Source of the DNA: Moorella glycerini | GTDB lineage: Bacteria > Bacillota > DSM-521 > Neomoorellales > Neomoorellaceae | NCBI RefSeq assembly: GCF_009735625.1 | Contig: NZ_CP046244.1 | Coordinates: forward strand, 2,294,001-2,358,000 | Length of the DNA stretch: 64,000 nucleotides | Direction of reading: 5' to 3' | In this document: positions 15,105-27,182 of the stretch, piece by piece | How the letters are laid out: every line of letters starts with the position of its first letter | Position numbering within the stretch: position 1 is the stretch's first letter | The notes under the pieces: model-generated | Seen by the model: the letters and a program-made list of their open reading frames with translations, nothing else | What the model was told of the DNA's origin: nothing | The model's database searches: none | Translations under genes and position numbers: made by a program

Positions 15105-15305
15105 ATGATTGAAGTATGGGTAAACGGTAAACAACTCCAGGTTGATAGAGGTACTACTGTCACCGGCCTGCTGGCCCGGGAAGGCCTGCTGACTCCCATT
15201 GCTACCGTAGCGGTCAACGATAAGCTGTTACCGCGGCAGGATTGGGATTACCGCCTCCGGGAGGGCGACAGGGTGGAGGTTATTAGTTTAATGGAGGGCG
15301 GTTAG
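15105..15305 (+). CDS. ThiS/MoaD-like sulfur-carrier protein
   Basis: 66 residues, beta-grasp type, ending in Gly-Gly, the C-terminus that is adenylated and thiocarboxylated in ThiS and MoaD. The ATG at 15105 gives the normal ThiS length and has GGAG 8 bases before it; a TTG at 15072 would add 11 residues. No ThiF/MoeB-type activating enzyme or ThiG is near. It could serve thiamine, tungsten/molybdenum cofactor or another sulfur pathway. Its place behind the LarA-like gene is unexplained. Confidence 0.72.
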   Translation: MIEVWVNGKQLQVDRGTTVTGLLAREGLLTPIATVAVNDKLLPRQDWDYRLREGDRVEVISLMEGG

Positions 15306-15344
15306 AGAAGCCCCATGGGGGCTAACGCCCCCGCCTAGCGAATG

Positions 15345-15656
15345 ATGAAAATTTGCCCGGTCGTTAGGGCGGGGATATGTCCCGGAGCCTATGAGGCGTG
15401 GAGCGAAGGTCAAAAGGACAAGCGAGGTGAGGCAACCGCTGCCGGCGCCGAGGACGCCTGAGCGTACCTTTGAGAGGGAACGATGTAATCTCATAGAAAG
15501 AGTAAAGTTGGCGGAACCAGGAGCCTGTTCATGGGCAATCCGCAGGCGACGAGCAGCGGTCCGAACCGAGCCGTAGTCCTGTCGGCGCGTAACTCCTGAG
15601 CGGCGAAGGGACATATCCCCGCCAGAAGGTACCATTACTGGCAGAACCCTATTTTC
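15345..15656 (+). repeat. structured insertion-like element, copy E (long form)
   Basis: A 312-base non-coding element starting ATGAAAAT (15345-15352) and ending TATTTTC (15650-15656) followed by GGAGG. GAAAAT and ATTTTC can pair at the ends. Inside is a perfect 16-bp inverted repeat, GGCGGGGATATGTCCC (15368-15383) against its complement at 15608-15623, enclosing about 220 bases with several short hairpins. It shares CCGAGGAC (15448-15455) and GAGCCGTAG (15568-15576) in the same order with the copies at 21396 and 26925. No long frame on either strand looks coding. It fills the gap between the ThiS-like and MetE-like genes. Confidence 0.7.
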
Positions 15657-15727
15657 GGAGGTAGGAGGAAAAGGCCGCCCGGCGGCGAATTAACCCGGGA
15701 GCACCTTTTGCGAAAAGGAGAATCTAC

Positions 15728-16792
15728 ATGCCTTTACCTGGTAACTTCTGGGCGGCCGGCATAGGCAGCCTTCCCCATCAGGAACCCGGGCCGGCCCTGG
15801 ACCTCATCTTTAAGCATATGCCCCTGGTACCCCACTGGCCCCAGTTACCCCGGCGGGGGCACCAGGAGCATTTCGTTTACCAGAGCTTATCCCCCCTGGT
15901 GCGCCTGGGATTGATTAAAGACCAGCCGGGGGAAATGCCGGTATTTACCGATGCCAACCCGGAGTGGGCCGATAACCTGACGGCCTTTTACAGCCTTTAC
16001 CTGGAGGCCGAGGCTGGCAGCGAAGAAGCCCTGGCGGCCTTTGCCATTCCCCGGGAAGCCGGCACCGGTTTTTATGCCCTGGTGGCATACCTGGCAAAAG
16101 ATGGTCCGGGTAGAGCCCGGTTTCTCAAGGGTCAGGTAGCCGGCCCCCTTACCGCCGGCCTTTATTTAAGCAGCAGCTCCGGGCGCAGCGCCTTTTATGA
16201 CCCCCAGCTAAGGGATCTCATCGTTAAGACAACGGCCATGCAGGCCTGCTGGCAGGTGCGGGAGCTGGGACGTTTCGGGCTGCCGGTGCTGTTATTTGTC
16301 GATGACCCGGCCCTGGCCGCGTACGGTACTTCCACCCACGTAGCGCTGCAGCGGGATGACCTGGTGGCTGCCCTGGCCGGTGTGGTGGAGGGGATCAGGG
16401 CCGGGGGTGGCCTGCCCGGGGCCCACTCCTGCAGCGGGGTGGAATGGCCCGTCTTTTTTGAGGCCGGCTACCAGATTTTAAGTTTTGACGCTTACAATTA
16501 CTTTACCTCCCTGCAGGTTTTTGCTCCCGACGTGGCCGCCTTCCTGGACCGGGACGGTGTGCTGGCCTGGGGGATTGTACCTACCTATGAGCAGGCCTGG
16601 CAGGAAACGGCAGCCAGCCTGGCTGCCAGGCTGCAGGGTGAAATTGAGGAGCTGGCCCGGCGGGGTGTGGACCGGGAGCGCCTTTACCGCCAGGCCCTGG
16701 TGACCCCGGCCTGCGGCACCGGCGTCCTGGCCGCAGACCTGGCGGAACACATCTACAAGTTAACATCCGGCGTGGCAGAACTTATGGCCTGA
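15728..16792 (+). CDS. MetE-core-like (UROD/MetE fold) methyltransferase
   Basis: 354 residues matching only the C-terminal catalytic half of cobalamin-independent methionine synthase. It keeps zinc-type ligands: His-Ser-Cys (H233, C235 in AHSCSG) and a late Cys (C329 in TPACGTG). It lacks the N-terminal folate-side half, as do the short MetE-like synthases of anaerobes that are thought to take methyl groups from corrinoid proteins. That makes a Wood-Ljungdahl-linked methionine synthase a reasonable guess, but another thiol methyl transfer is possible. AAGGAG precedes the ATG and a strong terminator follows. Confidence 0.72.
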   Translation: MPLPGNFWAAGIGSLPHQEPGPALDLIFKHMPLVPHWPQLPRRGHQEHFVYQSLSPLVRLGLIKDQPGEMPVFTDANPEWADNLTAFYSLYLEAEAGSEEALAAFAIPREAGTGFYALVAYLAKDGPGRARFLKGQVAGPLTAGLYLSSSSGRSAFYDPQLRDLIVKTTAMQACWQVRELGRFGLPVLLFVDDPALAAYGTSTHVALQRDDLVAALAGVVEGIRAGGGLPGAHSCSGVEWPVFFEAGYQILSFDAYNYFTSLQVFAPDVAAFLDRDGVLAWGIVPTYEQAWQETAASLAARLQGEIEELARRGVDRERLYRQALVTPACGTGVLAADLAEHIYKLTSGVAELMA

Positions 16793-21262: not shown

Positions 21263-21352
21263 CAGGTAGCGCCACATCAGGCTAAACTTGTGACCGCTTC
21301 GCGAGGACAAAGGTAGCGAAGCAGACAATGCTACCTGTGACAAAGTTTTTTC
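21263..21352 (+). repeat. structured element, truncated copy A'
   Basis: Arms CAGGTAGC (21263-21270) and GCTACCTG (21330-21337) close a 90-base segment whose right end (GACAATGCTACCTG, then ACAAAGTT, T-run, C, GAGGAGG) matches the right ends of copies A and B. The left boundary ATGAAAAT is missing. It lies just before copy A, giving a tandem pair, and its right end supplies a GGAGGAG that sits 6 bases before an ATG at 21368. Confidence 0.6.
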
Positions 21353-21395
21353 GAGGAGGAGCCTTCCATGGCGGTGAGCCGCCACCAGCGAGGGC

Positions 21396-21634
21396 ATGAA
21401 AATGCCTGGCTGGCATTTGTCGGAAGCGAGCGACTTGGCCCGAGTGGCGAAGCGGCCCAGGCGAAGCTGAGGGATGATAAGCGGGGCCGAGGACAGGATG
21501 TCCGAGGCCGGCCTCTGAGGCAAGGACGCCGAATAGGCCGGGAACCCCGCCCGAGCCCGAAGCTGAGCCGTAGGCCGCTCCACAAGGGCCACGGAGCGAG
21601 CGAGACAATGCCAGCCTGCGATAGAGTTATTTTC
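21396..21634 (+). repeat. structured element, copy A, between spoVD and murE
   Basis: 239 bases. It starts ATGAAAAT (21396-21403). The left arm GGCTGGCATTTGT (21408-21420) pairs with ACAATGCCAGCC (21605-21616), and it ends TTATTTTC (21627-21634) next to GAGGAGGA. Internal motifs GAAGCGAGCGA, CCGAGGAC (21487-21494), GGGAACCCCGCC and GAGCCGTAG (21565-21573) match copy B in order and spacing. The GAGGAGGA after the right end is the ribosome-binding site of murE. The frame opened by the ATG at 21368 runs into the element and is not a plausible gene over its length. Confidence 0.75.
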
Positions 21635-21653
21635 CGAGGAGGAACATTGTGCA

Positions 21654-23153
21654 GTGACCCTGGAAGAATTAGTAGCTGCGATAGATGTTATCGACCGCGG
21701 CGGCGACCGGCAGGTTTCCCTGGCCGGGCTCCATTATGATTCCCGGCAGGTGCAGCCTGGTTTTCTTTTTGTGGCCATCAAAGGTTTTAAGACCGACGGC
21801 CATTTATATATTAACCACGCCCTGGCTAGAGGCGCGGTAGCCGTCGTCCTGGAGGAGGAAGTCCCCCTGCCTCCCGGGGTGGCCTGGGTACGGGTAAGTA
21901 ACAGTCGCCGGGCCTTAGGAATGCTTGCGGCCCGTTTTTACGGATATCCCAGCCACCGGTTGCGCCTCATCGGGGTAACCGGCACCAACGGCAAGACTAC
22001 GACCACCCACCTCATCCAGGCGGTGCTGGAGGGCGCCGGCCGGTCTACCGGTTTGCTGGGCACCATCGCCAACCGCCTGGGCGATAAGGTCTTACCTGCC
22101 GTCCACACCACCCCGGAAGCCCTGGACTTGCAGGCCCTCCTGCACCAGCTGGTTAACCTCGGTGCTCAAGGGGTAGTCATGGAAGTATCCTCCCATGCCC
22201 TGGCCCTGCACCGGGTGGAAGGGGCCGAGTTTGACGTGGCCGTCTTTACCAATTTGACCCAGGATCACCTGGACTTCCACCAGGACATGGAGGACTACTT
22301 TCAAGTTAAAGCCAGGCTCTTCCAGGCCCTGGGCAAGGGCGTTAAAGAACGACCTAAATACGCTGTTATCAACGGCGATGATGCCTATAGCGCCCGCTTA
22401 ATAACCTTGACCCCGGTAGCGGTGGTTACTTATGGCTGCAGTCCTGAATGCCAGGTCCGGGCCCGGGATATAAATTTAACGGCGGGCGGCGCTACCTGCC
22501 GGGTGACCTGGGCGGGAGGAGAAGTGGAACTCAACCTCAAACTCACCGGTCGCTTTAATATTTATAATGCCCTGGCGGCCTTTACCGTAGCCTGGCAGGA
22601 AGGCCTTGACCCCCTGAGAGCCGCGAAAACTTTAGGTGAAGTCAGGGGTGTACCCGGCCGCCTGGAGCAGGTGCGCCAGGGCCAGCCTTTCACTGTGCTC
22701 GTCGATTATGCCCATACCCCCGACGGCCTGGAGAATGTCCTCCAGGCGGCCCGCCAGGTAACACGGGGAAACCTGATTGTAGTTTTCGGTTGCGGCGGCA
22801 ACCGGGACCGGGGCAAGCGTCCCCAGATGGGTAAAGCAGCCGCCCGGTTAAGCGATTACTGCATTATTACTTCTGATAACCCACGCGATGAAGATCCGGA
22901 GGCCATTATAGCTGATATTCTTCCCGGGGTAGAGGAAGTACCGGGCGCCCGCTACCAGGTGGTGGTGGACCGGCGCCGGGCCATTGCCGCGGCCCTGGCC
23001 CGGGCCCGGCCAGGGGATATGGTGGTTATTGCCGGCAAGGGACATGAGACCTACCAGATCGTCAAAGGCCAGGCCCTGCCCTTTGATGACCGCCAGGTGG
23101 CCAGGGAAGAACTGGCAGCCCTGGGTTATAGCGGGGAGGGATCTTCATGTTAG
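21654..23153 (+). CDS. murE: UDP-MurNAc-tripeptide synthetase, meso-DAP type
   Basis: 499 residues, cytoplasmic ATP-dependent ligase that adds meso-diaminopimelate to UDP-MurNAc-Ala-Glu. It has the Mur P-loop [11 protein letters not shown] near residue 110, the carbamylated-Lys region and the DNPR motif (408-411) that selects meso-DAP over lysine. The GTG start is 10 bases after a GGAGGA contributed by repeat copy A. It overlaps murF by 7 bases. Confidence 0.95.
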   Translation: MTLEELVAAIDVIDRGGDRQVSLAGLHYDSRQVQPGFLFVAIKGFKTDGHLYINHALARGAVAVVLEEEVPLPPGVAWVRVSNSRRALGMLAARFYGYPSHRLRLIGVTGTNGKTTTTHLIQAVLEGAGRSTGLLGTIANRLGDKVLPAVHTTPEALDLQALLHQLVNLGAQGVVMEVSSHALALHRVEGAEFDVAVFTNLTQDHLDFHQDMEDYFQVKARLFQALGKGVKERPKYAVINGDDAYSARLITLTPVAVVTYGCSPECQVRARDINLTAGGATCRVTWAGGEVELNLKLTGRFNIYNALAAFTVAWQEGLDPLRAAKTLGEVRGVPGRLEQVRQGQPFTVLVDYAHTPDGLENVLQAARQVTRGNLIVVFGCGGNRDRGKRPQMGKAAARLSDYCIITSDNPRDEDPEAIIADILPGVEEVPGARYQVVVDRRRAIAAALARARPGDMVVIAGKGHETYQIVKGQALPFDDRQVAREELAALGYSGEGSSC

Positions 23154-25518: not shown

Positions 25519-26928
25519 ATGTCCTGGCAGGGGAAAAAAGTACTGGTAGTAGGCCTGGGAAAAAGCGGCCGGGCAGCAGCAGCCGAACTGGCCCGGCTGG
25601 GCGCCAAGGTTACTGCCTGTGATTACAAATTGCTGGAGGGGGAAGAATTAGATGCTTTAAGCCGGGCCGGGGTGGAGCTTATCTTAGGCCGCTACCCGGA
25701 GGTAGCTTTGCTGCGACCCTACCTGGTGGTAACCAGTCCTGGCGTGCCCTCCTGGGAACCGCCCCTGGCCGAGGCGCGGCAACTGGGGATTCCCATCTGG
25801 AGTGAACTGGAGCTGGCCTATCGCCTGCTGCCGCCTGGGGTAAAGATAGCGGCCGTTACCGGGACCAACGGCAAGACAACTACTACGGCCCTGTGCGGCC
25901 AGATCCTCCAGGATGCCGGCCTGCCGGCGGTAGTGGGGGGTAATATCGGCATTCCCCTGGTAAAGGAAATAAGAGAGGTAATCCCGGAGGGCTATGTCGT
26001 CTGCGAGGTTAGCAGTTTCCAGCTGGAGGCCATAGCTGCTTTCCGCCCGCGGGTGGCAGTGATCCTGAATATTACCCCGGACCACCTGGACCGCCATGGA
26101 GATCTGGCCAGCTACATAGCTGTCAAAGCTCGCATCATGGCCTTTCAGGAGCCGGAAGATTTTGCCGTTTTAAATTACGATGACCCCGCGACCCGGGAAC
26201 TGGCTAACAAATCAAAAGCGCAGGTGTTATTTTTCAGCCGCCAGCAGCGGCTGGAGCGGGGAGCCTTTCTCAAAGACGACGTAATTTACGCCAATCTTGG
26301 CGGCGGGGAAGTCAAGCTGTGCCACCGGGAAGAGCTTTCTTTAAAAGGCAGCCATAATCTCGAGAACTGCCTGGCAGCTTCCCTGGTGGCCCTGGCCCTG
26401 GGGGTAAAGCCGGAACAGTTAATGGACACTCTAAAAACCTTCCCCGGCGTTCCCCACCGCCTGGAACGGGTAGCCGGGGTGGGCGGCGTCCTCTATATAA
26501 ACGATTCCAAAGGAACCAACCCCGAGGCTACCATGAAGGCCCTGGAGGCCTATCCCAACCCTCTGGTCCTTATTGCCGGGGGGAGAAACAAGGGTAGTGA
26601 CTTTACCCCGCTGGCCCGGAAAATGGCCGGCCGGGTTAAGTACCTGGTCCTGGTGGGCGAAGCGGCTCCGGACCTGGAGCAGGCAGCCAGGGGGGCAGGG
26701 ATTAAGCATATTTACCGGGCCTCCGACTTTAAAGATGCCGTCCTGGAGGCAGCCCGGCGAGCCTTACCGGGGGACATCGTCATGCTCTCGCCGGCCTGCG
26801 CCAGCTGGGATATGTTTAAAAACTACGAAGAACGGGGCGACCTGTTTAAAAGTATAGTACTTGAACTGGCAGGAAACAGCTACGGAGGAGTCATTCATGG
26901 CGGCGAGCCGCAACCATCGAAAGAATGA
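25519..26928 (+). CDS. murD: UDP-MurNAc-L-Ala D-Glu ligase, C-terminus remodelled by a repeat
   Basis: 469 residues; adds D-glutamate to UDP-MurNAc-Ala. The P-loop [11 protein letters not shown] near residue 117, [10 protein letters not shown] near 182 and the late [17 protein letters not shown] are intact. A normal MurD would end shortly after the FKSIVLEL segment. Here about 19 extra residues ([19 protein letters not shown]) follow, and the last part and the TGA come from the left end of repeat copy B (26925). The extension is probably tolerated, since the conserved C-terminal motif is complete. Confidence 0.94.
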
Positions 26929-26953
26929 AAATTGCGGGCTGGCATTTGTCTGA
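26897..26953 (+). other. possible leader peptide ORF spanning the left end of copy B
   Basis: ATG (26897) with GGAGGAG 6 bases before it encodes [18 protein letters not shown] and stops at 26951. The frame at 21368 (before copy A) begins MAVSRHQRGHENAWLAFVGSE, and the one at 45399 (copy C) reads MPLTRHHQKDENNGLAFVWSE, then stop. The copies before copies A and B also share the ribosome site. Whether the peptide is made, or the match only reflects DNA-level homology, is open. Confidence 0.35.
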
Positions 26954-27166
26954 AGCGAGCGAGCTTCTACCGAGCGGCGAAGCGGCCGCAGGCTGTGCCG
27001 CGGAGCGAGGGCGGGGCCGAGGACAGAGAGGCCTTCGGCCGGATTCTAAAGGCAAGGATGCCGAATAGGCCGGGAACCCCGCCTTAAGCCCTGGCTGAGC
27101 CATAGGCCGCTCCGCGAGGACTTTGGTGCGAGCCAGACAATGCCAGCCTGTAACAAAGTTATTTTC
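26925..27166 (+). repeat. structured element, copy B, between murD and ftsW
   Basis: 242 bases. ATGAAAAT (26925-26932), arm GGCTGGCATTTGT (26937-26949) paired with ACAATGCCAGCC (27137-27148), end TTATTTTC (27159-27166) followed by GGGGGAGGT, the ribosome site of ftsW. CCGAGGAC (27017-27024), GGGAACCCCGCC and GAGCCATAG (27097-27105) are in the same order as in copy A. Its TGA is the stop codon of murD. Confidence 0.75.
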
Positions 27167-27182
27167 GGGGGAGGTAATCATC

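Follow-up and report, generated by a model that had tools for sequence, protein, structure and literature searches.

The window analysed here, the whole 64-kb stretch of DNA under study in the 3.56-Mb genome of Moorella glycerini, carries a thiS gene (15105-15305, PF02597) preceded by a gene of the larA type and followed, at 15728, by a gene coding for 354 amino acids. Between thiS and the latter, all being oriented on the + strand, lies an element of about 356 nt (15306-15661). The orthologous loci of the close relatives G002 and G003 lack it: there we find a precise empty site, GGYGGTTRAGGAGGAAAAGGCC, to be compared with the filled site of M. glycerini, ...GGTTAG-[356 nt]-TAGGAGGAAAAGGCC, while the gene downstream is 97% identical in G002 and 96% identical in G003. 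This insertion polymorphism sets the boundaries of the element at 15306 and 15661. The interval proposed beforehand by a sequence-only reading, 15345-15656, falls within it and has to be extended by 39 nt on the left and 5 nt on the right. The same comparison leads to a possible short target duplication, a TAG present at 15303-15305, where it is also the stop codon of thiS, and again at 15662-15664, a proposal that is drawn from one locus and assumes that TAG was present in the site before insertion.

From left to right, the element begins with a hairpin module, AGCCCCATGGGGGCTAACGCCCCC (15309-15332), which alignments relate to CATGCCGC..GCGGCACCA in other genera. It is followed by a conserved left-end box, ATGAAAAT (15345-15352), common to the two types of copies described below and to other families. 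The 5′ arm of a closing stem (15368-15383, GGCGGGGATATGTCCC) is the exact reverse complement of its 3′ arm (15608-15623), and these arms enclose an RNA core of type 1 (15384-15607), made of a rod and an apical domain, in which 93% of the cells of the proposed rod are paired (alignment A4). Within this core, motif comparison identifies a conserved scaffold motif that reads GCGAAGGTCAAAAGGAC on its 5′ side (15403-15419), most relatives having GCGCCGGTAACNGNAC, and GTCCTGTCGGCGC on its 3′ side (15576-15588). The right end consists of the box TATTTTC followed by the Shine-Dalgarno-like GGAGG (15650-15661). Both end boxes are as they had been described. In the Moorella form the inverted repeats at the two ends are limited to GAAAAT/ATTTTC, which is very short.

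The 16-bp inverted repeat, perfect as had been claimed, is the sole one of at least 16 bp within 300 nt in the window, and none of 30 Markov-simulated windows contained one. The RNA 15345-15656 has a folding energy of -130.6 kcal/mol, to be compared with -107.3 ± 5.9 for shuffled sequences (z = -3.9). A search of the window at Rfam gathering scores gave no match, and a search of the element in Rfam 15 at E ≤ 5 gave nothing credible for any family. In particular, GGGCAATCCGCAGG recalls the Q box of group I introns, but no Rfam model of a group I or group II intron matches.

Covariation and strand preference of the RNA

Among 33 Moorella copies, 93.2% of the cells of the proposed rod are standard pairs and the closing stem has changed on both sides in 10 of its 16 pairs, a level of covariation that no shuffle or slid register came near. 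A stricter test on all pairs of positions was weak, with two pairs, one of them inside the structure, and a structure-set test was used instead, in which the null is obtained by dealing substitutions again on a FastTree tree: at E ≤ 0.05 this test detects covariation for 6 of 79 pairs, of which four belong to the closing stem, and for none in the slid controls. Across genera the sequences of the closing arms differ widely, even completely, with complementarity kept. In 28 elements from other genera the pairing of an arm with its own partner amounts to -34.4 kcal/mol, as against -18.8 for swapped arms, a difference reached in 0 of 10,000 permutations. Covariation of the stem and copies in related genomes, the joint absence of which had been named beforehand as a refutation, are thus both found.

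When the two strands are compared, the sense strand gives the better fold for 32 of 33 Moorella cores, for 28 of 30 elements from other genera and for 14 of 16 type-2 copies, counts that are not independent because the copies are related. Taken by itself, the closing stem favours neither strand, and in the helices chosen in Moorella the G-U departures are as frequent as the A-C ones. As most copies fold better in the sense direction, selection probably acts on the RNA of the coding-direction strand.

Copies, empty sites and losses in Moorella

In its own genome the element has 28 blastn matches, full or partial, at about 25 places, 16 of them nearly complete. Matches were found in 10 of the 11 genomes of the genus, and no copies were found in 50 genomes of other genera by the same method. 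The copies carry no open reading frame or conserved protein of their own, and together with the fold they support the initial description of a long, structured, non-coding member of a multi-copy family. When type-1 copies are aligned, some have full ends, with GGAGGAGCCCC.CATGGGGGC..GCCAGCGAACGATGAAAAT on the left and AGAACCCTATTTTCGGAGG on the right, and others consist of core and closing stem alone, the flanking sequence being unrelated. The elements located before murE (21360-21642) and ftsW (26889-27174) had been seen as kin of this one, and this is correct for the ends, which they share (GGAGGAG..CATGG-hairpin..ATGAAAAT and TTATTTTC+GAGG), and not for the core, which belongs to a second type with 33 matches in the genome. 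A covariance model built from Moorella type-1 copies (R1) recovers a single one of 16 type-2 copies, with no more than 11.7 bits (E = 0.012), and the two cores are remotely alike at best. At 26893-26950 and 21368-21739 of the window, the left-end hairpin module of these elements gives rise to short open reading frames preceded by a good Shine-Dalgarno sequence, and annotation may list them as hypothetical proteins. A leader-peptide reading of GGAGG..ATG at the left end, for example before ftsW, was discarded, since other genera have a homologous CATG-hairpin module that accounts for it.

The region upstream of murE illustrates the dynamics of the family. In M. glycerini, the remnant of an older type-2 element with an internal deletion (21268-21359) has received a new type-2 element within its GGAGG. 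The same locus holds a type-1 element in G002, a deleted type-2 element in G003, a fused closing stem without anything else in G001, a decayed copy in G004 and nothing in G008 and G010. Gain, swap, deletion and loss are therefore all displayed at a single site. Elsewhere, several copies lack the core between the two arms of the stem; at four loci (L032, L033, L211 and L200) the whole core was deleted independently, leaving a palindrome. Deletions of this kind are a typical mode of loss at long inverted repeats. The stretches searched yielded no autonomous or gene-bearing element that carries these ends, and a search for right ends that would enclose a gene recovered only cores and deletion forms.

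For 39 copies of types 1 and 2 examined in this genome, the neighbouring genes were located by simple gene calling: 26 lie in sense between two co-directional genes, four have both flanking genes antisense, and for the rest a neighbour was called on one side only. The distance of these 26 to the preceding stop codon and to the next start is usually a few tens of bases.

Relatives in other genera and the TwoAYGGAY RNAs

Searched against 398 genomes of the phylum, model R1 has matches in 23, which represent 11 genera; it was built on an RNAalifold structure that omits the closing stem, so that its hits rest on the core. Scanning GTDB for the exact motif retrieved Desulfoscipio, Desulfotruncus, Desulfallas, Desulfofundulus, Desulfovirgula and Pelotomaculum, with a dozen matches in Desulfoscipio geothermicus, while the few matches in other phyla seem to be fortuitous and to fall within genes. 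Relatives are met in many thermophilic anaerobes. The scaffold common to these RNAs consists of a stem GCGCCG/CGGCGC, an internal loop GUAA/U and a stem CAGGAC/GUCCUG. Compensated variants occur, among them GCACCG/CGGUGC and GCGUCG/CGACGC, and the loop motif is kept across genera. The apical domain, for its part, is exchangeable between relatives, and one of its variants is made of two GGA hairpins. This is the variant recovered by the Rfam model RF01731, TwoAYGGAY, with strand and position in agreement and scores of 59.3 bits at L120, 49.6 at L123 and 46.2 at L153. At L120 and L123 it coincides with R1, the outer scaffold being shared: these TwoAYGGAY RNAs have the same closing rod as the Moorella family and the same module, GCACCG-GUAA-CAGCAC / GUGCUG-U-CGGUGC. 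The thiS-locus copy differs from them by another apical domain, devoid of the two GGA hairpins, and RF01731 matches neither this copy at E ≤ 5 nor the type-2 copies at E ≤ 1. Our element is a relative of TwoAYGGAY by its scaffold and no member of it by the tests of that family. The advice to search Rfam covariance models thus gave a divided answer, negative for RF02033 (the HEARO model, discussed below) and for RF01731 on this copy, and positive for its relatives, a connection with TwoAYGGAY that had not been considered.

TwoAYGGAY was described by its discoverers as probably an RNA, with no assigned function (PMC2864571), and has been proposed to bind CsrA (PMC4333381). The literature that we searched does not describe it as a mobile element, and a search for the Moorella repeat itself found nothing. 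In the Desulfotomaculales the cores are housed in two kinds of ends, one written CATGCCGC..GCGGCACCA..ATGAAAA / TTTTCAGG (also TTTTCAGGATAG), and the other made of true terminal inverted repeats, GGTAAATATTCAGTAAAACCG, 254-375 nt apart. At L137, in the genome of an uncultured member of the Peptococcaceae, a match to the PYLIS_3 / mttB pyrrolysine insertion (2772-2871) adjoins an element.

Nature and possible function of the element

We can understand the thiS-locus element as a non-autonomous mobile element resembling MITEs, the sole cargo of which, some 250 nt long, is a structured RNA. Taken with the mechanism proposed below, this reading has in our opinion a probability of about 0.7. Both mobility and constraint at the RNA level are well supported: the family is present in many copies, is gained and lost as a unit, encodes no conserved protein, and has a core that is maintained as a fold, better on one strand than on the other. 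Many bacteria of Moorella and of the Desulfotomaculum group possess the same scaffold, with differing apical domains and ends, and TwoAYGGAY is one of its forms. As MITEs and other non-autonomous repeats, the element is short, has no gene, exists in many copies with internally deleted derivatives and empty sites, and has some relatives with clear terminal inverted repeats (GGTAAATATTCAGTAAAACCG). It departs from them in that it carries a large RNA structure under selection, and in that the same core is met inside unrelated kinds of ends.

Such an element would be moved in trans by an enzyme supplied by another element. In Moorella, insertion would occur at or beside a Shine-Dalgarno-like GGAGG, and a GGAGG would be left at the right end, so that the next gene would keep its ribosome site and insertion within an operon would be tolerated. 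The RNA would then be made within the operon transcript, its long closing stem allowing it to fold independently. In the intervening sequences of ribosomal RNA and other stems excised by RNase III, a long closing stem likewise surrounds a folded insert in a transcript. The closing stem of our element is similar, but the element lies between protein genes and its interior is far more conserved; in view of the length of the stem, RNase III would probably cut it out. The long stem and the relation to TwoAYGGAY further suggest that the rod may be a docking module for an RNA-binding protein. This would probably be CsrA in the type-2 and TwoAYGGAY variants, and presumably another partner in type 1, to which the thiS-locus copy belongs.

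Other explanations have to be weighed against this one. The sequence-only reading had considered, as a hypothesis, a link to HEARO; the element would then be a standalone guide RNA of an IscB or TnpB nuclease, scattered by IS200/IS605 transposition. HEARO is indeed a large structured RNA, dispersed and mobile, a multi-copy RNA with defined ends would be familiar from HEARO-rich genomes, and one species of the genus does possess IscB: at L061 (G006:C7; 1501-2016 and 2069-2365) an IscB-type gene (a 425-codon open reading frame with RRXRR), the only one found in the genus, has its cognate HEARO upstream. Yet RF02033, which scores 97.1 bits on this HEARO of a sister species, matches neither our element at E ≤ 5 nor anything in its genome. 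IscB (PF14239) is absent from that genome and from 10 of the 11 genomes of the genus, whereas the element is present in 10 of the 11, and the element resembles HEARO neither in sequence nor in structure and is accompanied by no nuclease. We are dealing with a real and unusual RNA-bearing repeat that is not HEARO, and the guide-RNA explanation must be held as highly improbable. IS200/IS605, a link also raised at the outset, had to be abandoned as the mobiliser, the only Y1 transposase of the genome being broken and belonging to an element with different ends (L184, G000:C1, about 1034191-1035700, an IS605-type element with a broken tnpA and a tnpB). A second explanation would see the element as a regulator serving the host, a cis-acting leader or an mRNA stabiliser controlling downstream genes. 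The sense orientation between operon genes of Moorella, near the next start codon, and the strongly conserved structure would agree with this role, which the distribution of the element makes unlikely: orthologous loci do without it, a full copy at the gene downstream of thiS is met among the other genomes only in G008, behind a different upstream gene, murE carries differing types or none, and outside Moorella any orientation is found (11 co-directional and 7 antisense, the others mixed), the bias for sense being weak.

Two explanations remain. One would take the family as a small RNA sequestering CsrA in the manner of CsrB, spread as a repeat, with the thiS-locus copy as a member that lost its GGA loops. 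Relatives with the same scaffold match TwoAYGGAY, proposed as a CsrA binder (PMC4333381); csrA is present in all 11 genomes of the genus, type-2 copies keep one or two NGGA hairpins, and 15 of the 16 type-2 copies in the genome fold a GGCAAGGA(U/C)GCC hairpin. The alignment of type-1 copies, however, has no conserved GGA or AYGGAY-loop hairpin and the core no RF01731 match, and mobility and tens of intercistronic copies would be left unexplained, so that we consider this reading quite doubtful. The other would restrict the matter to DNA, the inverted repeat being a hairpin for single-strand transposition and the RNA fold incidental. A bias for the leading strand is known for single-strand transposons, and with the origin marked by dnaA at 1,282,338, 48 of 54 repeat hits are in the leading-strand orientation and 6 in the opposite one, a bias that gene direction also yields and that is inseparable from it at these numbers. 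The lack of strand asymmetry in the closing stem alone would fit as well. In three sets of copies, on the other hand, one strand of the core has a distinctly better fold than the other, and the GUAA/U internal loop persists across genera, which makes a pure DNA element an unlikely alternative to the mobile RNA-bearing repeat that we favour.

With this repeat, a group of well-studied acetogens and sulfate reducers is seen to harbour a conserved RNA of large size, present in tens of copies per genome, to which no family of Rfam 15 corresponds. The repeat also places the hitherto unexplained TwoAYGGAY within a wider mobile superfamily, the function of which therefore becomes testable through a comparison of apical domains. 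As close species do not possess the same copies, natural pairs with and without the element make its effect on operons readable. It is tempting, if speculative, to go further and to envisage mobile elements of a new class: a modular RNA with a fixed rod and an exchangeable apical domain would itself be mobile and selected, would have given rise to CsrA-binding RNAs of the TwoAYGGAY type and might even assist movement; we advance this as a tentative possibility.

The surroundings of individual copies add further detail. To the right of the elements at L010, L064 and L080 there is a recurrent GGAGGAGCCCCCCATGGGGGCTGGCGCCCCCTCCACGACACATGAAATAGG, in which a left end on its own adjoins another repeat. 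In two species of the genus (L022 and L055), a copy is located just 3′ of the same gene, probably pyrD, the product of which ends with LAQLKQLPNEY, and is in the opposite orientation.
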